Assembly: GCA_016873515.1 (NCBI GenBank)
Contig: VGXB01000008.1
Location: forward strand, 1-59,157
Origin: Nitrospira sp.
Lineage (GTDB): Bacteria > Nitrospirota > Nitrospiria > Nitrospirales > Nitrospiraceae
DNA: 59,157 nt
Reading direction: 5' to 3'
Made by a program: the position numbers and the translations under genes. The notes under the pieces are model-generated. The model ran no database searches. It was not told where the DNA came from and saw nothing but the letters and a program-made list of their open reading frames with translations. Below are positions 4,937 to 59,157 of the stretch, piece by piece (the first letter of the stretch is position 1; every line of letters begins with the position of its first letter).

Positions 4937-6559
4937 ATGAACTCCATTCTCTACATCTTCCTCCCCTGCAAGAAGGTCTATCCCATCGGGATTACCTATT
5001 TGGCTGACTTCGTCCATCGGCGGAAGCCAGCGGTCCGCCAACGCATTCTGGACCTCTCGCTCTTTCCCATTGCGCAACGGAGCCAAGCGATCCGAGATGC
5101 CGCGACGGAGTTCAGGCCGGATCTCGTCTGTTTCTCCTGGCGGGACATCCAAATCTTTTCACCGCACGAAGGCGATTCCTCGCTCGAACATGCGTTCAAT
5201 TTCTATTTCGCCAGCAATCCGCTGAAGAAAATTACTGCCTCCATCGAGGGGGTCAAGCAACTCTATCGCTACTACAATCATATCTATACGATCCTGTCCT
5301 ATCCGGCATTGGTTCGAAAAGAATTTCCCAAAGCTCAGATCTTAATCGGGGGTGGGGCCTTCACTGCCTTTGCCGATCAGTTGATTGAAAAACTACCGGA
5401 AGGGACGATCGGAATTCTCGGTGAGGGTGAGGATGCGATCCTCAAACTCCTTGAAGGCCACTCGATCGACGATGAGCGCTATATCATCAGGAACGGCAAG
5501 CAGATCAAGAAGGGTACCCAGGGCTCGCCTCCGCTGTTGGATGCCCCGGCTGTCGACCTACCCTATCTGACCTCGATCTTCCCGCAATGGCGTGAATACG
5601 AAGGGGAATCGATCGGGGTCCAGTCGAAACGCGGCTGTCCCTACGACTGTGCCTTCTGCCTCTATCCCTACATTGAAGGGAAACGGGTGCGCTATCGTCC
5701 CGCGGAGATGGTTGTCAAAGACATCTCGCAGCACTATCACCAGTGGGGTGCCCGGCGGTTTTGGTTTACCGACGCGCAGTTCATTACGGGAAAAGAAGCC
5801 TATCCCCAATGTACGGAGATCATGGAGCGCATCATCAGCGAAAAGCTGGAGATCGAGTGGTCCGGCTATATCCGCACCTCGTTGATTACCCCCGACTTCG
5901 CCAAGCTGATGGTCCGATCCGGAGTGGGCGACTTAGAAGTCGCGATTACCTCCGGCTCACAAGAAGTGCTGAATAATCTTCATATGGGCTTCAAACTCGA
6001 ACGGCTGTACGACGGCTGTCGCTACCTGGCGGAAGCAGGGTTCAAGGGCAAGGTCATCCTCAATTATTCCCTGAACAGCCCCAAAGAGACGGAAGAAACC
6101 CTGCTCCAGAGCGTCGAGTCGTACAAAGTAGTGGCGTCGATCCTGGGCGAGGAACGAGTCTTCCCACTGATGTTTTTCTTGGGTATCCAACCCAATACCG
6201 ATCTGGAACAGCGGCTACTTGAAGAAGGCTACTTATCGGTAGGCTACAATCCGTTGATGTTGACACCGACCAGCATCAGAAAGCTGCTCTATAATCCGGC
6301 CCCATTGAATTCGTTTATCGCCAAAGCTTGCCTGCGTGCCTGGGAACGCAAACAAGGAAGCCACGATCCGCGCAAATGGACCGGCTCGCTGTCCCAGACA
6401 TTAGAGTCATCCACGTACGCTGATAAGAACTTGAGCAAGGGCATTGAAGGCAACTCCGGTCGCGACGCGCTTCTCTCCCTTGAAGAAATCCTCCGGTCGC
6501 GACGGCCCACCCCGACTCCTTCTCAGACAACGGAACCTCGAGTGTCCTCAGTCGGCTGA
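4937..6559 (+). CDS. Cobalamin-binding radical SAM protein
   Basis: 540-residue enzyme with an N-terminal B12-binding-like Rossmann region (about 1-180, including PKAQILIGGGAFTAF and GILGEGEDAILKLL) and a radical SAM barrel with the cluster motif C234-x3-C238-x2-C241 (RGCPYDCAFC). This architecture includes methylases, cyclases and lipid- or cofactor-modifying enzymes; the substrate here is not recognisable. The N-terminus starts directly in the fold (MNSILYIFLPCKKVYPIGIT). The last 80 residues are low-complexity and polar. No neighbour suggests a pathway: ubiE lies upstream and a Usp/PCP_red protein downstream. No SD is obvious. Confidence 0.85.
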   Translation: MNSILYIFLPCKKVYPIGITYLADFVHRRKPAVRQRILDLSLFPIAQRSQAIRDAATEFRPDLVCFSWRDIQIFSPHEGDSSLEHAFNFYFASNPLKKITASIEGVKQLYRYYNHIYTILSYPALVRKEFPKAQILIGGGAFTAFADQLIEKLPEGTIGILGEGEDAILKLLEGHSIDDERYIIRNGKQIKKGTQGSPPLLDAPAVDLPYLTSIFPQWREYEGESIGVQSKRGCPYDCAFCLYPYIEGKRVRYRPAEMVVKDISQHYHQWGARRFWFTDAQFITGKEAYPQCTEIMERIISEKLEIEWSGYIRTSLITPDFAKLMVRSGVGDLEVAITSGSQEVLNNLHMGFKLERLYDGCRYLAEAGFKGKVILNYSLNSPKETEETLLQSVESYKVVASILGEERVFPLMFFLGIQPNTDLEQRLLEEGYLSVGYNPLMLTPTSIRKLLYNPAPLNSFIAKACLRAWERKQGSHDPRKWTGSLSQTLESSTYADKNLSKGIEGNSGRDALLSLEEILRSRRPTPTPSQTTEPRVSSVG

Positions 6560-6691: not shown

Positions 6692-6783
6692 TCTTTGAAT
6701 CTGGTGTATCAGTTTAACCAGTTGGTTTTTCACGAGATTATGTTCGTGTGCCCGTGCGGTTGACCGCGCCCAAGGAAGCGCCC

Positions 6784-8886
6784 ATGTATAAGACCATCTA
6801 TATCCCGGTTGATAACTCCGACCATTCCAACACCGCCGTGGACGTCGGCGTCCATATGGCCAAGATCTTGGGTTCTAAGATCGTGGGCAGCCACGTCTAT
6901 GCCGCCAAGATGCACGACAAGCGCTTCAAGCAAATGGAGGCGGGACTTCCTGAAGAGTACCACGACGAGAAGGAGCTCGACCGCCAGCGGCAGATCCACG
7001 ACTCCCTGATCACCCGCGGGTTGCAGATCATCACCGATTCCTACCTCGACTATGTCGATAAGAAGTGCACCGAGTCTAATCTGCCGCTCGAACGCCGATC
7101 GCTCGAAGGACGCAATTGGAAAGTACTCTCCGAAGACATCAACACGAACGGGTACGATCTCGTCATCATGGGCGCATTGGGTGTGGGCGCCGTGAAGGAC
7201 AGTGTTATCGGCAGCAACACGGAACGGGTGGTGCGACGGGTCCGCAACTCCGACATGCTGATCATCAAGCACACCCAGCCGATGACAAACGGCAAAATTG
7301 TTGTCGCGGTGGACGGCAGCCCTTATTCGTTTGGCGGGTTGATGACAGGCCTGCAATTGGGCAAGGCGTTGAACATGCCCGTTGAAGCCATCTCAGCGTT
7401 CGACCCTTATTTCCACTATGCCGCGTTTCACAGCATCTCCGGCGTCTTGAACGAGGAAGCGGGGAAAGTCTTCCGATTCAAGGAGCAGGAAAAACTGCAC
7501 GAAGAAATTATCGACAGTGGTCTGGCCAAAATCTATCAATCTCACCTCGACATCTCTCGGGAGCTCGCCCAGGCCGAGCAAACCGACGTAAAAACCACCT
7601 TGCTCGACGGCAAAGCGTTCGAGAAGATCATTCAATACGTGCGCAAGGACGTTCCAGCCCTGTTGATCGTTGGCCGCATCGGCGTCCACAGCGACGAGGA
7701 TATGGACATCGGCAGCAATACGGAAAATCTGCTCCGGAGTGCGCCCTGCAATGTCCTGGTCTCGAACCGCAAGTACGTGCCGCCGATCGACACCCAAGCG
7801 GAATACACGATCGCCTGGACAGAAGAAGCCTTGCGCCGGATGGAAAAAATCCCCGTCTTTGCACGCGGCGTCGCCAAGACTGCCATTCACCGGTATGCGA
7901 TTGAAAAGGGACATACGATCATCAGCAATACCGTTGTGGATACGGCGGTTGGCCATATCCTGCCTAAAGGCGCCATGGATGCGATGCGAGCTCTGGGCGG
8001 CAGCCTGGACGCAGCCGGTATCGACCGCGATAAGATGCAGGCGGACGACGCGGTGGCGAAAGAGCTCATGGGTTCGACGCTCAGCAGCATGATGACCCAG
8101 GTGGTGGAAGAAAAACCCGTGGTGTCCGAGGCGACCCAAGCCTACCTAGACCGCATGAACCAAAACTATTTTGTGTGTGACGGTTGCGGGTACATCGGCA
8201 AGGGCGAGCCTCCAGTGAAGTGCCCGGTCTGCGCGGCTGACGGTGTCAAATTCAAACAAGTTGACAAGAGTATCTTCGATGCCGCAGCCAAATCCGAAGG
8301 TGTACTGGAAACTGACCTCGCGTACGACGACGTGCCGATGCAATGGACAAAAGATGCCAAAGAAGCGATCCGGGCTGTACCTGCCGGATTCCAACGCCGC
8401 CGCGCCAAGGCGAAGATCGAAAAGAGCGCGCGCAAGCTCGGCATGACCACGATCACGTTAGAATACGCCGCCCCGATGATCAAAGAGGCGGCAGACGAAG
8501 ACTACCAACCAATCTTCGCCAACAAGGGCACTGGGACTTCCACCGACGCAGAAGCTAAACTGGCTTCCGTAAGCGAATCCATCTCCAATAGGAACATGGG
8601 GCACGAGCAGGCTCCCGTAAATAACGGCAACGGCCATACGGAATCGTCCCCCTGTACCTGGACGGCTGATGCACAGGCCAGATTGGACCGGGCACCGGAA
8701 GGATTTATGCGAGACTGCACCAAAGCGCTGATCATCAAGCACGCCGAGACGATCGGGGTGACACACATTACGCTCGAAGTCGCCAATGAAGGGATCGAAC
8801 AGGCGAAGGGATATATGGCCGATGCCATGAAAACCGGCGACCTCAAGAGCATGATCGCAAACCTGACAGGCAAGGGAAGTTCTTAA
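6784..8886 (+). CDS. Double universal-stress protein fused to PCP_red and rubredoxin-like domains
   Basis: 700-residue soluble fusion. Two UspA-like domains (about 1-165 and 170-330) each keep an ATP-binding-type glycine loop (GALGVGAVKDSVIGSNT; GRIGVHSDEDMDIGSNT). Then come a PCP_red domain (341-395, IAWTEEALRRMEKIPVFARG), a rubredoxin-like knuckle (C465-x2-C468, C480-x2-C483) and two more PCP_red domains (518-570, MQWTKDAKEAIRAVPAGF; 623-680, CTWTADAQARLDRAPEGF). PCP_red is known as the C-terminal domain of the dark protochlorophyllide reductase B subunit; its role here is unknown. ATG 6784 is chosen because it has an AAGGA SD and begins directly in the Usp fold (MYKTIYIPVD). The next gene ends in the same domain, so a shared function is likely. 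The enzymatic or sensory role is not visible. Confidence 0.85.
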   Translation: MYKTIYIPVDNSDHSNTAVDVGVHMAKILGSKIVGSHVYAAKMHDKRFKQMEAGLPEEYHDEKELDRQRQIHDSLITRGLQIITDSYLDYVDKKCTESNLPLERRSLEGRNWKVLSEDINTNGYDLVIMGALGVGAVKDSVIGSNTERVVRRVRNSDMLIIKHTQPMTNGKIVVAVDGSPYSFGGLMTGLQLGKALNMPVEAISAFDPYFHYAAFHSISGVLNEEAGKVFRFKEQEKLHEEIIDSGLAKIYQSHLDISRELAQAEQTDVKTTLLDGKAFEKIIQYVRKDVPALLIVGRIGVHSDEDMDIGSNTENLLRSAPCNVLVSNRKYVPPIDTQAEYTIAWTEEALRRMEKIPVFARGVAKTAIHRYAIEKGHTIISNTVVDTAVGHILPKGAMDAMRALGGSLDAAGIDRDKMQADDAVAKELMGSTLSSMMTQVVEEKPVVSEATQAYLDRMNQNYFVCDGCGYIGKGEPPVKCPVCAADGVKFKQVDKSIFDAAAKSEGVLETDLAYDDVPMQWTKDAKEAIRAVPAGFQRRRAKAKIEKSARKLGMTTITLEYAAPMIKEAADEDYQPIFANKGTGTSTDAEAKLASVSESISNRNMGHEQAPVNNGNGHTESSPCTWTADAQARLDRAPEGFMRDCTKALIIKHAETIGVTHITLEVANEGIEQAKGYMADAMKTGDLKSMIANLTGKGSS

Positions 8887-8924
8887 GTGCTGGGTTTTGA
8901 GTTTGACGAGCACCAGTTGCGCTC

Positions 8925-9060
8925 CGTTCTTTAACTCAGTCCTCAGCACTCAATCCTCAGCACTCAAAGACATGGGCAAATCGCTTCCCATCTTCGACTC
9001 CTCAATGTTGCCTCGGCCTGAGCACCTCTCAGTCCTCAGGACTCAGAACTCAGCACTTGT
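8925..9060 (+). repeat. CTCAGTCCTCAGCACT-type direct repeats running into a CDS
   Basis: Copies of a roughly 9-14 nt word lie on both sides of the ATG at 8972: ACTCAGTCCTCAGCACTCAA, TCCTCAGCACTCAAAGA and, after it, CTCAGTCCTCAGGACTCAGA followed by ACTCAGCACTT. The second cluster is translated as LSVLRTQNSAL in the radical SAM protein if the start is right. A similar word (CTCAGCCCTCAGTCCGCAGC) occurs near 3263. Confidence 0.6.
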
Positions 9061-10336
9061 TCACGACGGCCGAACCGTCGATGATTTCAAGCCATATCTA
9101 GTCGCGTTGAATCTGACCAAGCGCTGCAACCTGAAATGCGACCATTGCTATCTAGATGCTACGACTAAAGCGGCCGGCGGCAATGACGAACTGTCCACGA
9201 ATGAATGTTTCCGGCTCATTGACCAAATCGCTGAAGTCAATAAAGGGTGCCTCCTGGTCATCACCGGCGGCGAGCCGCTAGTCCGCCCGGATATTCTCGA
9301 CATCGCCCGCTATGCCGTGAAGCTCGGCTTCATGGTCGTCTTCGGCACCAACGGCATGCTCATCGACGACCAGATGGCCAAAACCCTGGTCGAAATCGGC
9401 GTGATGGGCGTGGGTATCAGTATCGATTCGCTCGATCCGGCCAAACACAATGCCTTCCGCGGCGTACCCGGCGCGTGGGAAGCGGCAGTCGCTGGAATCG
9501 AGGCCAGCAAACGCAACGGCCTCCAATTCCAAATTCATTTCAGCGCACAGCCGATGAACTACCAGGAACTACCGGCTATCATCGACTGGGCCCATGGGCT
9601 CGGTGCCCGTGTGCTGAATGTCTTCTTCATGGTTTGCACAGGCCGCGGCGAGGAATTAACCGACATCACTCCGGCACAATACGAAGAAGTTCTCGGTTAT
9701 CTGGTGACCTGCCAGGACAACTATCAAGGCATGCTCGTTCGGGCCCGCTGCGCCCCGCACTTCAAACGGTTGGCTTACGAAAAAGATCCCAATTCGCCGA
9801 TCACAAAGGCCACTGGATATATGGGTGGCGGGTGCCTGGCGGGAACGAATTACGCCCGTGTGACGCCCAACGGTGAACTGACCCCCTGCCCCTACATGCC
9901 CCTGTCGGCTGGAAACGTCAGGCAGGATAGCTTTGCCGATCTGTGGACTCGATCCGATATCTTCAACTCATTCCGCTACCCGCAACTCAAAGGCAAATGC
10001 GGCGATTGCGAGTACACCGACATCTGCGGAGGCTGCCGTGCTCGTCCCTATGTGGACCACGGAGACTGGTTGGACGAAGACCAGTGGTGTCTGTATACGC
10101 CTAAAGGCGGTGAGAAAATCAAAGTGGCATTCAACACGCCAGAAGAAACTGAGGTGGCCTGGGATGACGCATCGACGTTGCGCTTGAGCCGCATCCCCTA
10201 CTTCCTCCGCGCGATGGTCAAAAAAGGCGTCGAAAAACACGCCCGCGAAAACAATGTCGCGCTCATTACTGTCGAATTGATGGAAGAGCTGCGCAAGAAA
10301 CGCTTCGGCAACGAGACGCCGGTGTTCAAATTCTAA
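8972..10336 (+). CDS. Radical SAM/SPASM protein with C-terminal PCP_red domain (NirJ/AhbC-like)
   Basis: 454-residue radical SAM enzyme. The [4Fe-4S]-SAM motif is C52-x3-C56-x2-C59 in LTKRCNLKCDHCY, GGEPL follows, and a C-terminal SPASM-type cluster region has CLAG, CPYMP, CGDCEYTDICGGC and WCLY. Overall it resembles NirJ/AhbC/AhbD enzymes, which modify siroheme or coproheme side chains, and peptide-modifying SPASM enzymes; a heme-type substrate is inference. The last 60 residues are a PCP_red domain (VAWDDASTLRLSRIPYFLRA...). The start is uncertain: ATG 8972 or 9005 are possible, there is no SD, and residues 19-29 derive from a spacer repeat. Likely partner of the Usp/PCP_red gene 85 nt upstream. 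Confidence 0.85.
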   Translation: MGKSLPIFDSSMLPRPEHLSVLRTQNSALVHDGRTVDDFKPYLVALNLTKRCNLKCDHCYLDATTKAAGGNDELSTNECFRLIDQIAEVNKGCLLVITGGEPLVRPDILDIARYAVKLGFMVVFGTNGMLIDDQMAKTLVEIGVMGVGISIDSLDPAKHNAFRGVPGAWEAAVAGIEASKRNGLQFQIHFSAQPMNYQELPAIIDWAHGLGARVLNVFFMVCTGRGEELTDITPAQYEEVLGYLVTCQDNYQGMLVRARCAPHFKRLAYEKDPNSPITKATGYMGGGCLAGTNYARVTPNGELTPCPYMPLSAGNVRQDSFADLWTRSDIFNSFRYPQLKGKCGDCEYTDICGGCRARPYVDHGDWLDEDQWCLYTPKGGEKIKVAFNTPEETEVAWDDASTLRLSRIPYFLRAMVKKGVEKHARENNVALITVELMEELRKKRFGNETPVFKF

Positions 10337-38095: not shown

Positions 38096-39268
38096 CTATT
38101 CCACCCCAAGTTTCTGGCCCTGTTTCAATCCGCGATGCAGGAAGATCGAGACGCTGCCGCTTCCATTATCAGCAACCGCCAAACCTGGCTCTTCCGTCCC
38201 AGTTGTGGTGGCCCGAAAAAATGAGAGCGCAAACGGCCCCGCCTTGGTCCGGTAATTCCTGGGCGGATAATGAAACGTGCCGTCGCCCTTGCCGAACAAG
38301 ATCGATAGGTCATTGGATTGAAGATTCACAATGGCGACGTCTATGAGACGGTCGCCATTGAAGTCCCGCGCGAGGCCGAAATTGGGGCCAGCATTGGCAC
38401 CGGAGTCTTTGCCAACATTGAATGTTGCATCGCCGTTGCCGAGCAGCGTCGTGAAACTGTCCCGCTCGCCGTTGATCACCAGTAAATCGCTATGCCGATC
38501 GCTGTTGAAATCCGAGAAACTGACGCCCAGCGGCCGCTTTCCCGCCGAATAGTCCTTGGGGCGGTGAAATGTGCCGTCGCCGTTGCCCTGCCAAATCGAC
38601 ACCTTGTTCGACATCGGCCCCCCGTTGGTAACCACCAGATCCAATTTACCGTCTCCGTTTAAGTCAGACAGGGCCACGCACGTCGGTGTATCGCCGTATT
38701 CGTACTGCACCCCATTCCGGAACTCCCCGGTGCCGGTGCCGAGAAAGACTTTAATTTTGTCGTTCCTGAGTGCCACGACAAGATCCGGATGCCGATCGCC
38801 ATTCACGTCATCGCTAGTCAGCGACACCGGTGTGCGAAAGACTGGATAGTGCGGGCCCTCTTCAAACTTTCCATTGCCGCGGCCAAACAACACGGCGATC
38901 TCGTCCCCTCCGGAACAGGCCAAAGCGACATCGGCATGCTCATCATGATTGAAGTCGGCCAGCGCCAGCGCGCGTGGCTCTTGACATACTTGGAATTGCA
39001 CGTGATCTTGAAACGTTCCATCACCGTTGCCCAGCAGAATCGACAGCGTGTTGCTCGAAATGTTGGTCGTGACCAGGTCGGTCAAGGAATCGTGGTTGAG
39101 ATCGACTGCGGTGATGGTCGTCGGATTCTTGCCGACCTTGAAACTGGCAAAATAGTAAAAGAGGTCAGGGGGGTTGTATGGCTCCGTTTTTGCGCATGCA
39201 GCGGTCCCCCCACATACAGAGCAGACGGCAAGCGCTGTGAAGAACGATCCAATAGTGGGCCTCATTCT
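38096..39268 (-). CDS. FG-GAP/VCBS-repeat exported protein
   Basis: 390 residues, exported: signal MRPTIGSFFTALAVCSVCGG with a possible lipobox TAAC (C24). Six Ca2+-loop repeats of type DxNxDxxxD are visible (DLNHDSLTD, DFNHDEHAD, DVNGDRHPD, DLNGDGKLD, DFNSDRHSD, DFNGDRLID), each followed by a GNGDGTF-type turn. The likely fold is a beta-propeller of integrin-like blades. Such proteins act in surface binding or as unknown envelope factors. It stands alone. Confidence 0.85.
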   Translation of the reverse strand, partial: RMRPTIGSFFTALAVCSVCGGTAACAKTEPYNPPDLFYYFASFKVGKNPTTITAVDLNHDSLTDLVTTNISSNTLSILLGNGDGTFQDHVQFQVCQEPRALALADFNHDEHADVALACSGGDEIAVLFGRGNGKFEEGPHYPVFRTPVSLTSDDVNGDRHPDLVVALRNDKIKVFLGTGTGEFRNGVQYEYGDTPTCVALSDLNGDGKLDLVVTNGGPMSNKVSIWQGNGDGTFHRPKDYSAGKRPLGVSFSDFNSDRHSDLLVINGERDSFTTLLGNGDATFNVGKDSGANAGPNFGLARDFNGDRLIDVAIVNLQSNDLSILFGKGDGTFHYPPRNYRTKAGPFALSFFRATTTGTEEPGLAVADNGSGSVSIFLHRGLKQGQKLGVE

Positions 39269-39407
39269 CCAATCTGTGACGTTCACAATGCCTGTTGCGC
39301 TTCTGTGCTCTGAGATACGGAGACCATGTCATATCATAGGGAACCGGATGGTGCAGTATAAGGGCCTTCTTTCACCCTGGCAATGGAAGAATCTTGCGAT
39401 CAGACCT

Positions 39408-39437
39408 TTGAATTTCACGCACGGTCTGCGCTACAAT
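39408..39437 (+). promoter_or_regulatory. Candidate sigma-70 promoter
   Basis: TTGAAT (39408-39413) and TACAAT (39432-39437) with 18 nt between, 26 nt before the ATG of the 106-residue gene and ahead of its SD AGGAGG. Confidence 0.5.
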
Positions 39438-39463
39438 GTTACGTCTTTCAGGAGGATGCTACA

Positions 39464-39784
39464 ATGAGCAAAATCGTGAGCGTCGACATTACCATGTACG
39501 GAATCGCCGAGGTGCTCCACTGGTGCCATGATCGTAACAAGGGACGCGTCGGAGGTGTCGATACGGCAGGTTTTGAGAACATGAAGGCACTACTGGCTGA
39601 GAAACCTCAGTCGGGAGATTACTTCACGCTGGATCAATTCTGGAAAAAGAAAGTCACGCTCGGGCTGACTCAAGAAGAAGTCGAGACCATCGACCGGTGT
39701 CTGTACGACATCCCGAACTTTGACAACGAGCCATTGCCGCAAATCCGCCACAAATTCTGGCCCAAGGAAACAGCAACCCACTGA
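39464..39784 (+). CDS. Small protein of unknown function
   Basis: 106 residues; SD AGGAGG 9 nt upstream. Soluble, no signal. Motif-like parts: VDITMYGIAEVLHWCHDRNK and EEVETIDRCLYDIPNFDN. No family recognised. It is a monocistronic plus-strand gene between leftward genes. Confidence 0.7.
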   Translation: MSKIVSVDITMYGIAEVLHWCHDRNKGRVGGVDTAGFENMKALLAEKPQSGDYFTLDQFWKKKVTLGLTQEEVETIDRCLYDIPNFDNEPLPQIRHKFWPKETATH

Positions 39785-39964: not shown

Positions 39965-40966
39965 TTAGAGTGCCCCTTCGCCTTTGAGGTATCTGCGGAA
40001 GCGATCCATCAGCTCGGCCCCCAGCGTTCCCCCCTCCGGCTTCTTGGTCGAGGGATCAGCAAAGTGGCCGCGGATTTCCTGGAGCCTTTTTTCGGCCTGG
40101 TCGTTCCCTTGCAGACGTTTGGTTTTCTGTAGCGCGGCTTCAAACGCATCGAAGGTCAGTTCGCTGTATCCAAACGCCCGAATGCGTTTCACGGCCTTCA
40201 TCATTGCCTGATTGCGAAACGTCGTCAGATGGTCCGAGTCGATCTCGGCTAATCCCAATTTCCTCGCCCGCCGCTCCGCCGCCTTTCGAATACCGCTTCG
40301 CACGAAATCCGGAGCCGTTTGCAGCCGTTTCCATGCCTCGTCGGTCCAAATCATACGGTCTTGCGGGACATCCCACAGCTGAGACAATCTCTGGGCATCG
40401 ATCACGGCGAAGGCTCGCTCGTGCGCCAAATCCTCGGCGTCCCGCTTGAGCATATCCGTCACAAATTCTGCGGCGATCGGAGGTGATTCTTTGACTTTCT
40501 CGTGCAACTGCACCAGCGCGTCTTCGGTCCATTCGATGGCGGGTCCTGCAGCGTCTTGCAAGTCACCGAGGGCTTCCACCTTTTCATATAATTCTACGTT
40601 CACTTCAAGATGCCCACGCTCTCTGGCAATCTCTTCGGCAATTTGCTGAATCATGTGACGCATGAACTCAGGTACACCGGCCAATTTCTCCCTGGCGGCA
40701 GCCGTCCAGGGGAGACGGCCCTGCGCCATCACTTCGGCAGCCGCCGCCAGCCCGGATTCTTCCCCCATACTGCCCATCATCTGGCCCTTGAATCGATCCA
40801 GCACATCTTCGGTAATTTCCGCAATCCCCAGCTCGCGAGCTTTTTTCTCAGCCACACGACGGACCATCCCGCGCAGGAAGATTGGCGCGCGGTCCATGCG
40901 TGTCAATGCGCCGGGTGTCCAGCGAACTTCCGTGGCATTCGATTCGGATGAATTGGGGATGGACAC
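39965..40966 (-). CDS. Tandem PCP_red-domain protein (four copies)
   Basis: 333-residue soluble protein made almost wholly of PCP_red-type units: 14-60 (VRWTPGALTRMDRAPIFLRG), 84-132 (LPWTAAAREKLAGVPEFMRH), 144-195 (IEWTEDALVQLHEKV) and 205-255 (MIWTDEAWKRLQTAPDFVRS). A possible fifth, partial unit follows at 255-285. Each keeps the W-T...A...P-F-x-R core and a helix with (V/A)E..AR..G. In photosynthetic bacteria the domain belongs to the dark protochlorophyllide reductase subunit B; its function here is unknown. It sits 19 nt after the HU/IHF gene, last in the aromatic/rpsA run. Confidence 0.8.
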   Translation of the reverse strand: MSIPNSSESNATEVRWTPGALTRMDRAPIFLRGMVRRVAEKKARELGIAEITEDVLDRFKGQMMGSMGEESGLAAAAEVMAQGRLPWTAAAREKLAGVPEFMRHMIQQIAEEIARERGHLEVNVELYEKVEALGDLQDAAGPAIEWTEDALVQLHEKVKESPPIAAEFVTDMLKRDAEDLAHERAFAVIDAQRLSQLWDVPQDRMIWTDEAWKRLQTAPDFVRSGIRKAAERRARKLGLAEIDSDHLTTFRNQAMMKAVKRIRAFGYSELTFDAFEAALQKTKRLQGNDQAEKRLQEIRGHFADPSTKKPEGGTLGAELMDRFRRYLKGEGAL

Positions 40967-40985: not shown

Positions 40986-41264
40986 CTATTGGTTCAACAG
41001 CCCTTTCAGTTCCTTGCCGGCCTTAAAGAATGGGACCTGCTTGGCCGGCACAGCCACGGTAGCGCCGGTCTTCGGATTACGCCCTTCCTTCATGCGGCGC
41101 GCCCGCAGACGAAAACTGCCGAAGCCGCGAATCTCAGTCTTGTCCCCGTTTTTCAGCGAATCCCTAACACAGTCGAATATGGTGTTGACGACAACCTCCG
41201 CCTGTCGCTTTGTCAAGGTCGTGACTTGTTCGGATACTCGTTCGATGATCTGCGCTTTCGTCAT
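40986..41264 (-). CDS. HU/IHF-family DNA-binding protein
   Basis: 92-residue histone-like DNA-bending protein: MTKAQIIERVSEQVTTLTKR, dimerisation helices, GFGSFRLRARRMKEGRNPKT and the beta arm GATVAVPAKQVPFFKAGKEL. The position after rpsA and sppA is similar to ihfB in proteobacteria, so an IHF-beta-like protein is likely. ATG 41264 fits the family start; an upstream in-frame ATG adds eight residues. Confidence 0.9.
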   Translation of the reverse strand: MTKAQIIERVSEQVTTLTKRQAEVVVNTIFDCVRDSLKNGDKTEIRGFGSFRLRARRMKEGRNPKTGATVAVPAKQVPFFKAGKELKGLLNQ

Positions 41265-41315
41265 GTGCCTCTCCCTTCGCTTGGCCAATTAAGCGGATCT
41301 GTTCCTTGCAGACAG

Positions 41316-42218
41316 CTAAAACGCCATCAAGTATTTCATGCTGATGCCTGGGTGAAAATCCAATTTGGGGAACACCGCCGTAAACTTGGATTCGAGGAAT
41401 CCACGGATGGAAAACCGTCGCTTGGGCTCGACCACTTTCGGCTCACCCTCAATACCAGCGGTGTCCGCGGCCAATTTAATGGCATCCTCGAGATCGCCCA
41501 ACTCATCGACCAGCTTGGATTCTTTCGCCTGACGGCCGGTAAAGATCCGTCCGTCCGCCAATACCTGAGCCGCAGGCAATTCCAGCTTGCGTCCCTCTGC
41601 CACCGCTTCAATGAATTGTTTATGCACATCGTCCATTACCGACTGCAAGAGTCCCTGTTCTTCCTCGCTCATCTTCCGAAGGGGAGAGCCGACATCCTTA
41701 TACTTACCACTCTTGATAACCACCCCTTCCACTCCGATCTTTTCCAGCAATCCCTCAACATTCGCCGTTTCCATAATGACACCAATGCTACCGGTCAATG
41801 TGCCGGGGTTCGCCACAATTCGTTCGGTGGCCGCTGCGATATAATAGCCGCCGGATGCTGCGACGCTGCCCATCGATGCGATCACTGTCTTGTTATATTT
41901 GGCGCGAACCCGTTTGACCTCGTTGTAGATTTCTTGGGATGGGACGACACCTCCACCAGGACTGTCGATACGCAGGACGATCGCTTTGACAGACGGGGTT
42001 TCGCCGAAGCCCCTCAAGTCCATGATTGTCTGTTGCGAGTCCATGATGATCCCTTCGACGCGAACCAACGCAATCCGATCTCCGCTCGACATGTCGAGAT
42101 CGGGAAAGATGACGTTCAGAAGAACCAGTAACCAAAAACCCGCCGCCAACACCCAGAACAAGGTGCGCAGCAGTCGGCGCTTCGGAGGTCGGCCCACCTG
42201 TACCGCATCCTCAATCAT
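41316..42218 (-). CDS. sppA: Signal peptide peptidase SppA (S49 family)
   Basis: Membrane protease that degrades cleaved signal peptides. 300 residues, short-form SppA; one TM helix (about 18-38), catalytic Ser S122 in GSVAASGGYYIA and the general-base Lys in the SGKYKDVGSP block (K172/K174). It lies between rpsA and the HU/IHF gene. Confidence 0.92.
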   Translation of the reverse strand: MIEDAVQVGRPPKRRLLRTLFWVLAAGFWLLVLLNVIFPDLDMSSGDRIALVRVEGIIMDSQQTIMDLRGFGETPSVKAIVLRIDSPGGGVVPSQEIYNEVKRVRAKYNKTVIASMGSVAASGGYYIAAATERIVANPGTLTGSIGVIMETANVEGLLEKIGVEGVVIKSGKYKDVGSPLRKMSEEEQGLLQSVMDDVHKQFIEAVAEGRKLELPAAQVLADGRIFTGRQAKESKLVDELGDLEDAIKLAADTAGIEGEPKVVEPKRRFSIRGFLESKFTAVFPKLDFHPGISMKYLMAF

Positions 42219-42258: not shown

Positions 42259-43968
42259 CTAGTCGTTCGACTGCTGGCGCTTCCGGCTCTGCTTAGCCGC
42301 TCGGCCGAGACTCTGATCCGGCCCCCCCTGCGTAGAATGATACTCATCGGCCTGTCGGCGCTCTAAATCCAGCTGATGATCGCGCAAGCTCAGTGCAATC
42401 TTGCGCTCTTCCCGATCGACCTTGATGATCTTGCCGACGATCGCATCTTGCAGCTTGAACTTCTCCTCAAGCTTCGTCTGTGGTTCGACACCAGTTTCGC
42501 TGATATGAATTAACCCCTCGACATCACCGTCCAGCTCAACGAAGATCCCGAAATCAGCCACCTTGCTGACTGTGCCGGTTACCGAGTCACCCACGTGATA
42601 CCGGGACGGAATCGCGTCATCCCATGGATCGCGCGACAACTGTTTGAACCCCAGCGACAGCCGCTCTTTCTCCTTATCGATGCGCAGGACGATCGCTTCC
42701 ACTTTCTGCGCTTTCTTGAAGAGCTCCGAGGGATGCTTGATGTGCTTCGTCCAGGACATATCGGAGATGTGGATAAGCCCATCGATCCCTTCTTCAAGGC
42801 CAATGAAAGCACCAAAATCAGTCAGGCTTTTCACCTTCCCTTCGATGCGAGTCCCAACTGAATACTTGTTCTCAATCATATCCCAAGGATTCGGCGCTGT
42901 TTGCTTCATCCCCAGCGAAATCTTTCGGCTCGCCGGATCGACGTTCAAGACTGCAGCCTCCACCTGATCGCCAACCGCCACCACGCGTGACGGATGCCGA
43001 ACTTCATGAGTCCAGGACATTTCCGAGACATGCACGAGCCCTTCGACCCCAGGCTCCAACTCGATGAACGCGCCATAGTCCGTGAGGCTCACGACCCGCC
43101 CACGCACACGGGTGCCGACAGGGTACTTGCCAGCTACATTGGTCCAAGGATCCGCCGACTTCTGCTTGAGTCCCAGGGAGATGCGGCCCGTCTCACGATC
43201 GTATTTCAACACCGTCACTTCGACCTTGTCGCCTATGGTAAACATCTCGGACGGATGATTCACGCGGCCCCACGACATGTCGGTGATGTGCAACAACCCG
43301 TCGATCCCGCCGAGATCGATGAAGGACCCGTAATCGGTGATGTTTTTGACCGTCCCTTGGATCAGCTGTCCTTCCTTGAGCATGGCCATGGTCGTTTGCC
43401 GCTTCTTGTCTCTGGTTTCTTCCAATAGCACGCGGCGGGACACCACCACGTTGCCACGGCGGTGATTGATCTTGATGATCTTGAGCGGGAAGGTCTTCCC
43501 CACCAGGCCGTCGAGGTCACGCACGGGATGGAGATCAATCTGCGACCCGGGCAAAAACGCCTTGACGCCGATATCCACCATCATGCCACCTTTGATACGC
43601 GAGACAATCTTGCCCTCGATGCTCTTCTCGTCTTTATAGAGCTTTTCCAGCTCCTCCCAAATCTTCATTTTGTCGGCTTTCTCTTTGGACAACACGAGAT
43701 TGCCGTCTGCGTCTTCGCATTCTTCGATGTAGACCTGGAGTCGGTCGCCGACCTTCACATTTTGCAGTTCCTCGGACGAGAACTGGTCGATGGGGATCAT
43801 CCCCTCCGATTTGTAGCCGATATCGACAATGACCTTGTCCTTAGTGAGCGCCACCACGTGGCCTTCGGTGATCGTGCCCTCTTCCAAATTGCGGAAGGTT
43901 TCTTCGTACAACGCGGCCAGCGCGTCGCGGTCTAACTGTGCCTCACTGCTGTTGAATACCGTACCCAT
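42259..43968 (-). CDS. rpsA: 30S ribosomal protein S1
   Basis: mRNA-binding ribosomal protein needed for translation initiation. 569 residues with about six S1/OB repeats (for example GHVVALTKDKVIVDIGYKSE, KNITDYGSFIDLGGIDGLLH, VSLTDYGAFIELEPGVEGLV, KSLTDFGAFIGLEEGIDGLI, SKVADFGIFVELDGDVEGLI) and a basic tail rich in R, K and Q. In many bacteria rpsA follows cmk; here plsC is inserted between. Confidence 0.95.
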   Translation of the reverse strand: MGTVFNSSEAQLDRDALAALYEETFRNLEEGTITEGHVVALTKDKVIVDIGYKSEGMIPIDQFSSEELQNVKVGDRLQVYIEECEDADGNLVLSKEKADKMKIWEELEKLYKDEKSIEGKIVSRIKGGMMVDIGVKAFLPGSQIDLHPVRDLDGLVGKTFPLKIIKINHRRGNVVVSRRVLLEETRDKKRQTTMAMLKEGQLIQGTVKNITDYGSFIDLGGIDGLLHITDMSWGRVNHPSEMFTIGDKVEVTVLKYDRETGRISLGLKQKSADPWTNVAGKYPVGTRVRGRVVSLTDYGAFIELEPGVEGLVHVSEMSWTHEVRHPSRVVAVGDQVEAAVLNVDPASRKISLGMKQTAPNPWDMIENKYSVGTRIEGKVKSLTDFGAFIGLEEGIDGLIHISDMSWTKHIKHPSELFKKAQKVEAIVLRIDKEKERLSLGFKQLSRDPWDDAIPSRYHVGDSVTGTVSKVADFGIFVELDGDVEGLIHISETGVEPQTKLEEKFKLQDAIVGKIIKVDREERKIALSLRDHQLDLERRQADEYHSTQGGPDQSLGRAAKQSRKRQQSND

Positions 43969-54051: not shown

Positions 54052-54774
54052 CTACATGAATTTCATGAACTTGTCCTTGGCATCATCCATCACTTGCGCC
54101 GTGATGGTGGCTAGCCCTCGCTCCTTGGCCATCCGCTCCACTTCTTTCCGGGCCATCGGACGGATGAAATCAGGAATGTTCTCCAACCGCTGCTCGGCTT
54201 CGCGTGACCAGGTCATGCCCTCCGGGGAATAATTCTTGGCATCATCCATCACTTGCAGAGTGATGCTCTTGAACCCCTGCTTGCGCGCATAGCCCTCCAC
54301 ACTCGCCTGCACCATCGGCTTCACGAACGCCGGCAGCCGATCCAGTTTCTCTTTTGCATCCGCCGTCCATGTAAATTCCGCAGGCCCGCCGTTCATTGGC
54401 TTCCCGGAGTTCGTCAATCCCATCTCAGCGACCATAGCGGAGAAGGGACAGCCACTCGCTTTTTCAGGGGCCTTCGCAGGCGATGTCGCCGTGGCCGCGA
54501 TCGCTGGTGCGGCCGGATTGGGCATTGGAGCAGAGGCAGTCTGACCATTTCCTCCGAGGGCGCGTAACCCGTCCAGAGAGGCGGCCGGCTCAGCCTTCGG
54601 ACTGAGCTTCAAACCGAGAGAATTCATCATGTTCGTTTCGCCGGCGTTGGTGACCATCGAAAACTTGGCATTGCAGGACGGACAGCCGAAGAACACCCCA
54701 AGAGAACTTTCACCAGGCTTTTCAACCTTTTCCAGATTCATGTAAGTTTCACAATTGAGACACACGAACTTCAT
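54052..54774 (-). CDS. Zinc-ribbon protein with two PCP_red domains
   Basis: 240 residues: an N-terminal zinc ribbon (C5-x2-C8, C31-x2-C34), a low-complexity Ala/Pro linker (about 60-130), then two PCP_red domains, 133-180 (FTWTADAKEKLDRLPAFVKP) and 186-235 (MTWSREAEQRLENIPDFIRP), each ending in the same ITxQVMDDAK phrase. The two copies are more like each other than most, suggesting local duplication. Function unknown; the domain is related to the end of the dark protochlorophyllide reductase B subunit. SD GAGGAG. It stands alone between yebC and the sulfate operon. Confidence 0.8.
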   Translation of the reverse strand: MKFVCLNCETYMNLEKVEKPGESSLGVFFGCPSCNAKFSMVTNAGETNMMNSLGLKLSPKAEPAASLDGLRALGGNGQTASAPMPNPAAPAIAATATSPAKAPEKASGCPFSAMVAEMGLTNSGKPMNGGPAEFTWTADAKEKLDRLPAFVKPMVQASVEGYARKQGFKSITLQVMDDAKNYSPEGMTWSREAEQRLENIPDFIRPMARKEVERMAKERGLATITAQVMDDAKDKFMKFM

Positions 54775-54955: not shown

Positions 54956-56827
54956 CTAAATTGAGTACTGGAACACCGGCTTGGTGCCGATGGCCTGAGC
55001 CAGCACACCCCGTTTCTTCAGCTCGCCCATGATCCGTTTGGTCGCGGCATCCAAATCGGTCAAGCCGACCAAAACTACATCGATGTTGGGCGGGGGTTCT
55101 TCCGCCGTCTTGCTCATGTGCACGGCAATGAGGGGTGCAGGATTCACGAGCGTACGAATCGCCTGTGCCGCTTCGTGGTAGGCTAAGCCGAACGGATTGG
55201 TTGTGGAGACGACGATCAACCCGGTATCGGTCAGCAACCGCGCGACTTCGCCGTACCGTCGCGCCATCTCAGCTGTCTGCCCCCGCTCTTCCTCGCTGAG
55301 ATCAGCATCGAGCCCGCGCCGTAAATTTTCGCCATCCAATAAGTAGGCGTGCCGGCCGTCGGCTACCAGCTGCTCTTCCAGCTTGCGCGCCAGCAGCGAT
55401 TTGCCTGTATGTCGGCCACCCGTGAAGAGAACCACGGCCGCCCGGTGGCCATACTGCTTGGCACGATCTTCGACCCCCACCTCGCCCTTGACCCACGCAA
55501 AGTCCCGTCGGCGCGCTTCCTCACGCAAAAATTCCTGATCGTCGTGCACCAATTCCGTGATAATACCGCCCCCGGCGATGTCGTATTCATCGACGAGGAC
55601 GAAGCGGCCGGTCGACTCGAATGAAGACGAAAGGTCAAACGCCAACGGGGCTTTCGTGCGAAACATCAGTTCCGCCACTTGATTTTTGCCGACTGAGTGA
55701 CTGCCCTGTTGCTGGGCTAAATCCATCGTATCAATGATGCGATGGATGGAGGCTACTTCACAGTTCACTTCTTTGGTTGCGACACGCAGCAGATATTTGC
55801 GCCCCTTTTCGAGCGGCTTTTTCCCCAGCCAAAACACGTTGGCACGAAACGCGGTCGAGACGGAGGGCAGCTGCTTCTGGTGTGATGCGATCTCACCACG
55901 TTCTACGAAAATCTGTTCGTCCAGCGTGATGCCGATCGATTGCCCAGCCTCGGCCGCCATCGGTTGTGGTTCGACGTTGAACGCCTCAACTGATTGAATA
56001 TTGGCTCGCTTGTTCGAGGGGGAAAACACGAGATGATCGCCGACCTTCAACCGGCCCGCCGTAATGCGGCCCGTGATGATCCGGCGCGCATCGAATTTGT
56101 ACACGTCCTGCACGGGCAATCTGAGCGGCTGCTCCGACCGGGCCGCTTCTTTCTTGAAGAGGCTCAGCGTGTCGAGCACCGTAGGGCCGGTATACCAGGA
56201 CATCTGTTCGCTGCGACTGACGATATTGTCCCCCAGCTTGGCGCTGACCGGAATGAACTGCGTCGGCACCGCTTTGAACTGCGCCAGAAACTCCCGGTAC
56301 TCCTTTTCAATCCCATCGAAGACATCTTGCCGGTAGCCAACGAGATCCATCTTGTTGACGACCACAGCGAACTGACGGACTCCGAGCAGCGACAGCAGGT
56401 AACCATGTTTCTTGGACTGTTCCCTGACACCCTCGAGGGCATCGATTAGGAGCAGGGCCGCCTCAGCACGGGCCGCACCGGAGATCATGTTTTTCAGGAA
56501 TTCTTTGTGGCCCGGTGCATCAATAATGATGTACTGACGCCCCTTCCAGATAAAAAAGGTCCGGGCCGTATCGATCGTAATGCCCTGTTCTTGTTCCTCT
56601 AGAAATGCATCGAACAGGAACGCGTACTCGAATTCTTTCCCTTGCTGGCGACAGATAGCCTGAACCTTTTCGAGTTTGCCCTCCGGCAACGAGCCCGTAT
56701 CGGCATAGAGCCGTCCGACCAAGGTGGACTTCCCGTGATCCACGTGTCCCACGATCACGATATTGAGGTTCTCTTCCGGTTTCGAGATGCTGCGCGTCAA
56801 CGCAGCCGGCATGGCCGTATTCTTCAT
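54956..56827 (-). CDS. cysN: Sulfate adenylyltransferase large subunit fused to a CysC-like domain
   Basis: GTPase subunit (CysN) that drives APS formation with CysD, fused to a C-terminal APS-kinase-like domain (CysC). 623 residues. GTPase motifs: IVGHVDHGKSTLVGRL, DAPGHKEFLKNMISG and NKMDLVGY; EF-Tu-like beta domains follow. The CysC part (about 445-623) keeps a P-loop-like GGRHTGKSLLARKLE and DGENLRRGLDADL, but the usual kinase segment with KARAGxIxxFTGIxxPYExP is not seen. The kinase may be inactive. The ATG shares one base with the cysD stop (TGATG). Confidence 0.92.
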   Translation of the reverse strand: MKNTAMPAALTRSISKPEENLNIVIVGHVDHGKSTLVGRLYADTGSLPEGKLEKVQAICRQQGKEFEYAFLFDAFLEEQEQGITIDTARTFFIWKGRQYIIIDAPGHKEFLKNMISGAARAEAALLLIDALEGVREQSKKHGYLLSLLGVRQFAVVVNKMDLVGYRQDVFDGIEKEYREFLAQFKAVPTQFIPVSAKLGDNIVSRSEQMSWYTGPTVLDTLSLFKKEAARSEQPLRLPVQDVYKFDARRIITGRITAGRLKVGDHLVFSPSNKRANIQSVEAFNVEPQPMAAEAGQSIGITLDEQIFVERGEIASHQKQLPSVSTAFRANVFWLGKKPLEKGRKYLLRVATKEVNCEVASIHRIIDTMDLAQQQGSHSVGKNQVAELMFRTKAPLAFDLSSSFESTGRFVLVDEYDIAGGGIITELVHDDQEFLREEARRRDFAWVKGEVGVEDRAKQYGHRAAVVLFTGGRHTGKSLLARKLEEQLVADGRHAYLLDGENLRRGLDADLSEEERGQTAEMARRYGEVARLLTDTGLIVVSTTNPFGLAYHEAAQAIRTLVNPAPLIAVHMSKTAEEPPPNIDVVLVGLTDLDAATKRIMGELKKRGVLAQAIGTKPVFQYSI

Positions 56828-57624
56828 CACATGTACCCCTTCTTCCGCAGCATCTCCATCCCGCGTCCTGCATCCTGTGCTCGACCGGCCCGCTCGGCGA
56901 TATTCGTACCTCGCAGCTCCTCGATGATTTCGTCCACCGTCTTGGCGGTAGACTTGATCGGTGTGGTGCAGGGAGCACAACCCAGACTCCGATAGCGGGT
57001 ACCGTCTCCTCTGTCCAGGTAGAGATCCATGAAGGGAATGTTTTCAGCCTTGATGTATTCCCAAATATTGATCTCGGTCCAATCCAAGAGGGGATGAACC
57101 CGGATGTGCGTCCCCGGCGGAAAGGTCGTCTTAAATTGGTTCCAGAGTTCCGGCGGCTGATCGCGAAAGTCCCAATCGCCGTGCTTGTCGCGCGGAGAAA
57201 AATACCGCTCCTTTGCCCTGGTCGCGTCTTCATCGGCTCGGACGCCCAAAATGATGCCGGTGTAGCCCTTTGACTCAATCAGATTCTTCATCGCATTGGT
57301 CTTGAGCGCCGTGCAGCACACATCCCGGCCGAGCGTATGGTTCATGCCGGCGGCAAGGGCCTCCTTGTTTTGTCCGACGACCAAGTTCAACCCCCATTCG
57401 CGGGCTAGCCGATCGCGGTACTCGATCATCGCGGGAATCTTGTAGCTGGTGTCTACATGCAGCAGCGGAAACGGCACATGGCCAAAGAACGCTTTACGGG
57501 CCAGCCATAACAACACGGTCGAATCTTTGCCCATCGACCAGAGCATGCCCAGATTGTCGAAATGCTTATACGCTTCTCGGAAAATATAGATGCTTTGATC
57601 TTCTAATTGACGAAGGTGGTTCAT
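56827..57624 (-). CDS. cysD: Sulfate adenylyltransferase subunit CysD
   Basis: Catalytic subunit of ATP sulfurylase, forming APS from ATP and sulfate. 265 residues, PP-loop ATPase; [39 protein letters not shown] and [20 protein letters not shown] are family blocks. Its end overlaps the cysN start. Confidence 0.95.
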
Positions 57625-57648: not shown

Positions 57649-58695
57649 TTATGACGACGCGGCTACCGATGCTCGCGCCAACTCTTCCAGCTTGCGCGCC
57701 GCCGCGCCTCCATCGACTGCCACCCTCGCGACGGACAAACAGGCTGCGAGCGAGTTCCCTTTCCCAGCAACGTAAAGCAGTATCGCGGCATTCATCAACA
57801 CCCAATCTTTTGGCCCACCCTGGACCTGGTTCTGCAAAATGCGGCGCAGCAGTTCTGCCTCTTTGTCCCGCTGATCGGGAGGGAATCCGGCCATTTCCCG
57901 TGATGGGACGAACCCGAGTCCAAAATCTTTCGGCGCCACCGACAACGGCGTAATTCGTTCATCGCGCAGTTCCAGCACTCTCGTCGACATCGAGGCGGAC
58001 AACTCCGGATCACCCTCGACACCCCGAATGATCAGCGCTCTAGCCGTACCGAGCATGCGCAGCGCCTCAGCTGTCTTCTCGAAATACGGCGGATGCGATA
58101 ATCCGACGATCTGTACCGACGCCCGAGCGGGATTGAGCAGCCTGGCAATCGGATGAAAGACGTTCCGCACACCCAATTCCTGCCGCATATCGAGAAACCG
58201 ATACACCGGCGGATGGTAGAGGCCGATGTCCAGATACGCGAAGCCCTTCCGGTTCACCTCGTCGGCCACCTGCTTGGGGTCGTCGTCCACCGAAATGCCA
58301 AGGGCTTTCAACACCCCGGCGGCCCCGGGCCGTCCAGAAACGCCATCGTAGCCGTGCATCAGCACGACGGCACCGGCTGCTGATGCGACGATAGCTGCAG
58401 CGACAATGGCGTGAAAGGTGTCCTGCTTGCCGGCATAGGTCGGAACATCCACCAGCGCCAAATCCCGCGATATTGCCAGTGGCGGTACGTACTGCCGGGC
58501 CGCGGCCGTTAGCGCGGCCAATTCAGTGACCGATTCGGTCTTGAACCGCATGGCGATTAGAAAGGCGCCGACCTGCGCCGGAGTCGCCTCTCCTTCGACC
58601 AAGGCCTTCATCACCTGCCGGCACTCATCCCAGGTGAGGTCCTTGGACGCTTTGGGACCTTTGGCCACTTTGGCAAGAAGTTCGTGAAAAGCCAT
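57649..58695 (-). CDS. TrpD2/anthranilate phosphoribosyltransferase-like protein
   Basis: 348 residues related to the glycosyltransferase family of anthranilate phosphoribosyltransferases (TrpD, YbiB). The N-terminal helical part has DLTWDECRQVMKALVEGEAT and QVGAFLIAMRFKTESVTELA. The PRPP loop normally GTGGD is VPTYAGKQDTF here, so it resembles YbiB/TrpD2-type proteins rather than a true TrpD. Its place between cysH and cysD suggests a role linked to sulfate assimilation, but none is known. ATG 58695 lies directly after the cysH stop. Confidence 0.8.
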   Translation of the reverse strand: MAFHELLAKVAKGPKASKDLTWDECRQVMKALVEGEATPAQVGAFLIAMRFKTESVTELAALTAAARQYVPPLAISRDLALVDVPTYAGKQDTFHAIVAAAIVASAAGAVVLMHGYDGVSGRPGAAGVLKALGISVDDDPKQVADEVNRKGFAYLDIGLYHPPVYRFLDMRQELGVRNVFHPIARLLNPARASVQIVGLSHPPYFEKTAEALRMLGTARALIIRGVEGDPELSASMSTRVLELRDERITPLSVAPKDFGLGFVPSREMAGFPPDQRDKEAELLRRILQNQVQGGPKDWVLMNAAILLYVAGKGNSLAACLSVARVAVDGGAAARKLEELARASVAASS

Positions 58696-58696
58696 G

Positions 58697-59157
58697 TTAC
58701 GCCTTGTGCAGACCGCACTCGGTCTTCCCACTACCCTGCCAGCGACCGGACCGGAGATCTTGCCCCGGCATCACGTGGTTTGTGCAATGCGTACAGCCGA
58801 TGCTCGGATAGTGGCGATCGTGGAGCGGATTGTACGGAACTTCGTAGACTTTGATGTAGGTCCACACGTCAGCCCAGGTCCAGCGGGCCAAGGGGTTGAC
58901 CTTGACGAGCCCGAACTTGGCGTCCCATTCAATAAGCCCCGCGTTGGCCCTGGATGGGGCCTGATCCCTCCTGATCCCGGTGATCCAAGCGTCATATCCT
59001 TGCAACACGCGAGTCAACGGTTCGACCTTCCGCAGTTGGCAACACTGATCCGGGTCCTTCGACCACAAGGCCTCGCCATAGCGTTGCGCCTGGCGATCCG
59101 GAGACAGCAATGGCTTGATCTGAATCACCTGGTCCGACTTCAAATCATATCGTTCAA
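58697..59157 (-). CDS. cysH: Adenylylsulfate (APS) reductase, 5' partial
   Basis: Reduces APS (or PAPS) to sulfite. The window holds the C-terminal 152 residues; the frame stays open to the right edge (ERYDLKSDQVIQIK), so the gene is cut. DQCCQLRKVEPL (CC) and GCTHCT (CxxC) form the four-Cys motif that binds [4Fe-4S] in APS-type enzymes, and the catalytic tail ECGLH is present. ITGIRRDQ, WTWADVWTYI and VPYNPLHDRHYPSIGC are family landmarks. It heads the cys operon. Confidence 0.95.
   Translation of the reverse strand, partial: ERYDLKSDQVIQIKPLLSPDRQAQRYGEALWSKDPDQCCQLRKVEPLTRVLQGYDAWITGIRRDQAPSRANAGLIEWDAKFGLVKVNPLARWTWADVWTYIKVYEVPYNPLHDRHYPSIGCTHCTNHVMPGQDLRSGRWQGSGKTECGLHKA

Follow-up and report, generated by a model that had tools for sequence, protein, structure and literature searches.

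The known home of the PCP_red domain (Pfam PF08369) is BchB (ChlB), a component of the dark-operative protochlorophyllide reductase (DPOR; 2ynm, 2xdq, 3aek and 2kru). A free-standing form has been described as well, the Asr4154-type protein of Nostoc (2l09), which consists of a single PCP_red unit in 62 aa and has no enzyme domain. No statement on the role of this domain, even for DPOR, was found in the literature that we searched.

In this study, we analyzed a stretch of 59,157 nucleotides from Nitrospira sp. (hereafter the window), which encodes a protein with four PCP_red units (PCP4). PCP4 belongs to the same family as the BchB domain and has the same predicted fold, but it lacks the nitrogenase-like catalytic domain and carries four units plus a new tail, and its units lie on branches separate from BchB in a low-resolution tree. 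It is not a DPOR subunit B: only the C-terminal ~55 positions of that model were matched, with 79 bits against a cut-off of 490. Like the Asr4154-type protein it is a free-standing PCP_red protein, with four units and a tail in place of one unit. Descriptions of PCP4-like proteins were not found in the literature searched, the coverage of which was incomplete.

Repeat units and tail of PCP4

The PCP4 gene is an intact open reading frame on the minus strand, with a GTG start at 40966 and a stop at 39965. Its parts are as follows, with the kinds of evidence used for each.

39965..40966, minus strand: PCP4, four-unit PCP_red protein of 333 aa (Pfam search, unit alignments, family profile, orthologues)
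40799..40927, minus strand: PCP_red unit 1, residues 14-56 (profile matches, unit alignment, fold match to 2kru)
40589..40714, minus strand: PCP_red unit 2, residues 85-126, with the near-invariant His119 (profiles, unit alignment)
40391..40537, minus strand: PCP_red unit 3, residues 144-192, a degenerate copy containing a short insertion (weak match to the BchB profile, clear match to the family profile)
40226..40354, minus strand: PCP_red unit 4, residues 205-247, the most conserved unit (profiles, fold match to 2ynm_D)
39968..40180, minus strand: conserved non-PCP_red helical tail, residues 263-333, which accompanies unit 4 in fusions

A sequence-only reading of the window had placed four PCP_red copies in this frame, without a catalytic partner domain. 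Coordinates and strand were exact, and PCP_red was the sole Pfam family found in the protein, in four stretches (E=7.7e-42; 141.5 bits against a curated cut-off of 32.5), with units 1, 2 and 4 individually above the cut-off. The same reading held that PCP_red units make up almost the entire protein; the four units stand, whereas the extent was somewhat overstated because residues ~263-333 form the conserved helical tail. The possibility that this tail represents a fifth half-unit was considered and found unsupported, the weak scores coming partly from overlap with unit 4.

A profile built only from five BchB sequences recognized residues 13-56 (35 bits), 85-126 (24 bits) and 206-247 (26 bits), corresponding to units 1, 2 and 4, and matched unit 3 (residues 144-191) weakly, at 1.9 bits. 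Alignments of unit 3 with the other units scored 45-48, equal to or above all but one of 2000 shuffles, and a family-trained profile detected this unit at 33-50 bits in every orthologue examined, as it did all four units. On these alignments and profile matches, unit 3, though degenerate, is best regarded as a true repeat. In the low-resolution unit tree, branching was mostly by position (1 with 1, 2 with 2, etc.), which suggests that the four-unit array probably predates the class of Nitrospira.

An AlphaFold2 model was calculated from 34 orthologues. Its confidence was moderate (mean pLDDT 73, pTM 0.47), so that the fold of a unit can be read and the packing of the units cannot. Each of the four units was predicted as strand-helix-helix-strand-helix and had the fold of solved PCP_red domains: unit 1 superposed on 2kru with Z 8.6-8.8 in two models, unit 4 on the PCP_red domain of BchB (2ynm_D) with Z 7.3 (1.3 Å over 50 residues, 34% identity), and the model matched 2l09 with Z 7.8. 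Together with the BchB profile, these superpositions confirm the identity of the units and exclude that they are ordinary helical repeats unrelated to PCP_red. The small (lid) domains of AAA+ proteins, such as RuvB, have a similar three-helix/two-strand arrangement and scored about as high on the PCP4 model (Z ~7.4); however, no sequence relation was detected and such Z values are common for helical domains. Membership of PCP4 in AAA+ was therefore rejected as a likeness of fold only, there being neither an AAA family match nor a P-loop ATPase domain.

Distribution and selection

Of 98 genomes sampled from the class, 93 had a full-length, single-copy orthologue of PCP4, at 41-79% identity, and about 34 of 38 close relatives had it when only long matches were counted. 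Named records with PCP4 are from Nitrospira and Nitrospiraceae, including N. moscoviensis. The dN/dS values to near relatives (~0.08-0.10) indicate purifying selection; they are close to those of the neighbor SppA and above those of IHF. PCP4 is thus not a recent gene, and its single copy in most genomes and low dN/dS make it look essential. None of the 58 class genomes tested for BchB had it.

Genomic neighborhood

PCP4 is the last gene of a same-strand run, rpsA - sppA - ihf - PCP4.

40986..41288, minus strand: HU/IHF-family gene, a conserved neighbor only within the order
41316..42218, minus strand: sppA (peptidase S49)
42259..43968, minus strand: rpsA (ribosomal protein S1)

The gap of 19 nt to the HU/IHF gene upstream was given correctly by the sequence-only reading (HU/IHF stop at 40986), which had also supposed that PCP4 would be made with housekeeping genes and had asked about the conservation of the sppA-ihf-PCP_red order. 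This order was kept in all 30 loci from the order Nitrospirales, and IHF lay upstream of PCP4 in 80 of 80 named loci. On the other hand, neither sppA nor IHF stood beside the PCP4 orthologue in any of 20 loci from other orders. This implies that the link to IHF is positional and not functional, and the housekeeping neighbors proved no guide to function; IHF and SppA were ruled out as functional partners, since the synteny exists at the order level only. It is also unlikely that PCP4 binds DNA. A role in the nucleoid, or in binding DNA or RNA, for a protein produced alongside HU/IHF and ribosomal protein S1 would agree with the invariant place after IHF within the order and with the RuvB lid-like fold, yet it is very improbable given the loss of that place outside the order, a pI of 6.0 for the PCP4 encoded in the window (albeit 8.5-8.8 in some orthologues) and gene fusions (see below) that point to enzymes and not to chromatin.

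On the downstream side, most same-genus loci retain a gene for an FG-GAP/VCBS-like repeat protein (read from the sequence; 38096-39286, minus strand) and one for a 133-aa protein with no significant family match (39383-39784, plus strand).

Outside the order, PCP4 often adjoins radical SAM/Usp or Mrp/zinc-ribbon PCP_red genes. The gene order Usp-PCP_red-rubredoxin, radical SAM-PCP_red, PCP4, CopD-like was seen in six of the seven loci L051-L057, with the CopD-like gene present in five, and several other-order loci had PCP4 near genes for Mrp/NUBPL, a zinc-ribbon protein with two PCP_red units and a TenA/heme-oxygenase-like protein. Within Nitrospirales, PCP4 and the radical SAM gene lie far apart.

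Other PCP_red genes of the genome

PCP4 is one of five PCP_red genes in the genome and not a lone oddity; 11 units were detected in total, or 12 with a weak one. Three of the other genes are in the window.

6748..8886, plus strand: Usp-Usp-PCP_red-rubredoxin-PCP_red-PCP_red protein, 712 aa, a candidate partner of PCP4
8897..10336, plus strand: radical SAM/SPASM protein (NirJ2/AhbD-like) with a C-terminal PCP_red unit, a candidate partner of PCP4 and, in another family, joined to PCP4 units in one frame
54052..54774, minus strand: CxxC zinc-ribbon-like protein of 240 aa that carries two PCP_red units, a paralogue

The fifth gene, on contig 7 (L011:6216-6716), encodes 166 aa with a Cys-rich N-terminus and two PCP_red units; it directly follows a DUF420 gene and lies one gene upstream of a gene for a bd-type oxidase subunit. 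The radical SAM/SPASM and Usp/rubredoxin proteins share PCP_red with PCP4 but carry enzyme or redox domains, of which PCP4 has none. In class relatives, the Usp/rubredoxin protein can have as many as two rubredoxin-like domains and five PCP_red units (L051:586-3417). A short distance upstream of the Usp-PCP_red gene in the window, the gene at 4937-6559 (plus strand) encodes a B12-binding radical SAM protein, for which the slr0320 high-light model was the nearest, at 447 bits against a cut-off of 775. Elsewhere in the window, two PAPS reductase-family genes (56827-57624 and 58697-59143, both minus strand) lie on either side of a gene of glycosyl transferase family 3 (57649-58731).

The radical SAM-PCP_red protein was closest to the NirJ2 (325 bits) and AhbD (311 bits) models, well below the curated cut-offs of 500 for membership; no other protein of the genome matched the AhbD model at E 1e-20. 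In two genomes a separate, closer AhbD homologue (430-444 bits, also below the cut-off) exists besides it, which argues that the radical SAM-PCP_red proteins form a distinct subfamily. We had considered that this protein could supply a missing last step of heme synthesis, and dropped the idea: HemY was found in six of six genomes and ferrochelatase in five of six, and closer AhbD homologues occur elsewhere. A separate observation is that the single-contig genome G027 (family f3) has HemY and a ChdC/chlorite-dismutase family gene and no ferrochelatase family match. The chlorite-dismutase/ChdC-family gene was intact in five relatives, while the window genome had only broken or contig-end fragments, namely a family match with two stop codons (G000:C23:13293-13733; L159) and another fragment, lying at the end of a contig (G000:C76:2902-3033; L160).

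Gene fusions of PCP4

To find PCP4 relatives inside larger open reading frames, we ran the profile of PCP4 orthologues over the phylum. In three genomes of one outside family (L145, L146 and L147), a radical SAM/SPASM domain with its own PCP_red unit is followed by PCP4 units 2-4 and the tail, in frames of 706-730 aa; the profile matched residues 370-705 of 706 with ~340 bits. In the unit tree, the first unit of these fusions clustered with units of radical SAM proteins, and the remaining three fell mostly among PCP4 units 2-4, the degenerate unit 3 being placed poorly. In each of the three genomes, the gene immediately after the fusion is HemY (290-305 bits against a cut-off of 98), an adjacency confined to this one family. 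In six further genomes from two other families (L148, L149, L150, L154, L155 and L156), a Usp-Usp-PCP_red protein has PCP4 unit 4 and the tail at its C-terminal end, and a radical SAM-PCP_red gene adjoins this fusion at least in L149, L150, L154 and L155, the four stretches that extend far enough to include that gene complete. Genes similar to cytochrome c or the heme-b subunit of type II DMSO reductase lie nearby in L146, L157 and L158.

Possible function of PCP4

Gene fusion and operon order provide good evidence that PCP4 acts together with the radical SAM and Usp/rubredoxin proteins. We propose, with a probability of roughly one half, that PCP4 is a soluble, non-catalytic adaptor or scaffold subunit, whose four PCP_red units and tail would dock the radical SAM/SPASM enzyme and the Usp/rubredoxin protein and hold both together, in a complex that probably performs a late step of tetrapyrrole (heme-type) or heme-protein maturation. 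Both putative partners carry PCP_red units themselves. Such a role appears the simplest, as the partners would bring the chemistry and PCP4 only units and a tail. A binding or scaffold function had already been suggested from the repeat-only composition; the fusions make it likelier, while physical docking by PCP_red units is what we infer from them. The occurrence of PCP_red in BchB, the likeness of the radical SAM protein to NirJ2/AhbD, the neighboring HemY gene and the nearby cytochrome c or DMSO reductase-like genes suggest a tetrapyrrole link, and the radical SAM system is probably tetrapyrrole-related, with a tetrapyrrole as its putative substrate; with the radical SAM protein below both curated cut-offs and a closer AhbD homologue present besides it in two genomes, the link is suggested and not proven. 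Other observations count against the proposal: HemY adjoins the fusion gene in a single family, PCP4 keeps company with Mrp, zinc-ribbon PCP_red and TenA/heme-oxygenase-like genes in some orders, and in Nitrospirales it is remote from the gene of the radical SAM protein.

The same heme-related observations could be read in another way, with PCP_red units binding the tetrapyrrole directly and PCP4 serving as a multi-site porphyrin/heme carrier or buffer instead of a docking scaffold. BchB belongs to an enzyme that handles protochlorophyllide, PCP_red proteins adjoin heme-type genes, and a motif, W..A..P.F.R, recurs in the PCP4 units. However, the shared residues of this motif look structural, and PCP4 has no Cys residue and just one near-invariant His, so that repeated axial heme ligation is unlikely and we consider a carrier function doubtful. 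A different use of the units, modeled on BchB working with BchL, would be to dock P-loop Fe-S ATPases of the NifH/Mrp type, PCP4 then aiding Fe-S delivery to radical SAM or rubredoxin-type proteins. In several orders, the gene for the Mrp/NUBPL iron-transfer NTPase indeed adjoins the zinc-ribbon PCP_red gene near PCP4, and iron proteins, of the radical SAM and rubredoxin-like kinds, are among the proposed partners. That docking of ATPases is nevertheless improbable, as Mrp is not adjacent to PCP4 in Nitrospirales and no fusion of PCP_red with Mrp was seen.

Turning back to PCP4 as an adaptor between the radical SAM/SPASM and Usp/rubredoxin proteins, a wider proposal can be made tentatively. 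The class of Nitrospira might possess a conserved, hitherto undescribed five-gene PCP_red system, in which an accessory domain of a chlorophyll enzyme is reused as a general module for docking, in a maturation of heme or heme proteins that supports the respiratory chain of nitrite oxidizers. Its parts would possibly be the radical SAM/SPASM protein, the Usp/rubredoxin protein, the zinc-ribbon adaptors and the four-unit scaffold.

PCP4 is a known domain type in a new arrangement, with a testable set of partners. A domain of a chlorophyll enzyme has been amplified, in fixed architectures and under strong purifying selection, in non-photosynthetic nitrifiers and their relatives: ~11-12 units were detected per genome in most genomes of the class, and 0-3 in most of the remaining phylum. 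The fusions supply concrete partners, and the role of the PCP_red domain thereby becomes testable. Should the maturation of heme or heme proteins prove to be the task of this system, the system would be relevant to the assembly of the respiratory chain in Nitrospira.
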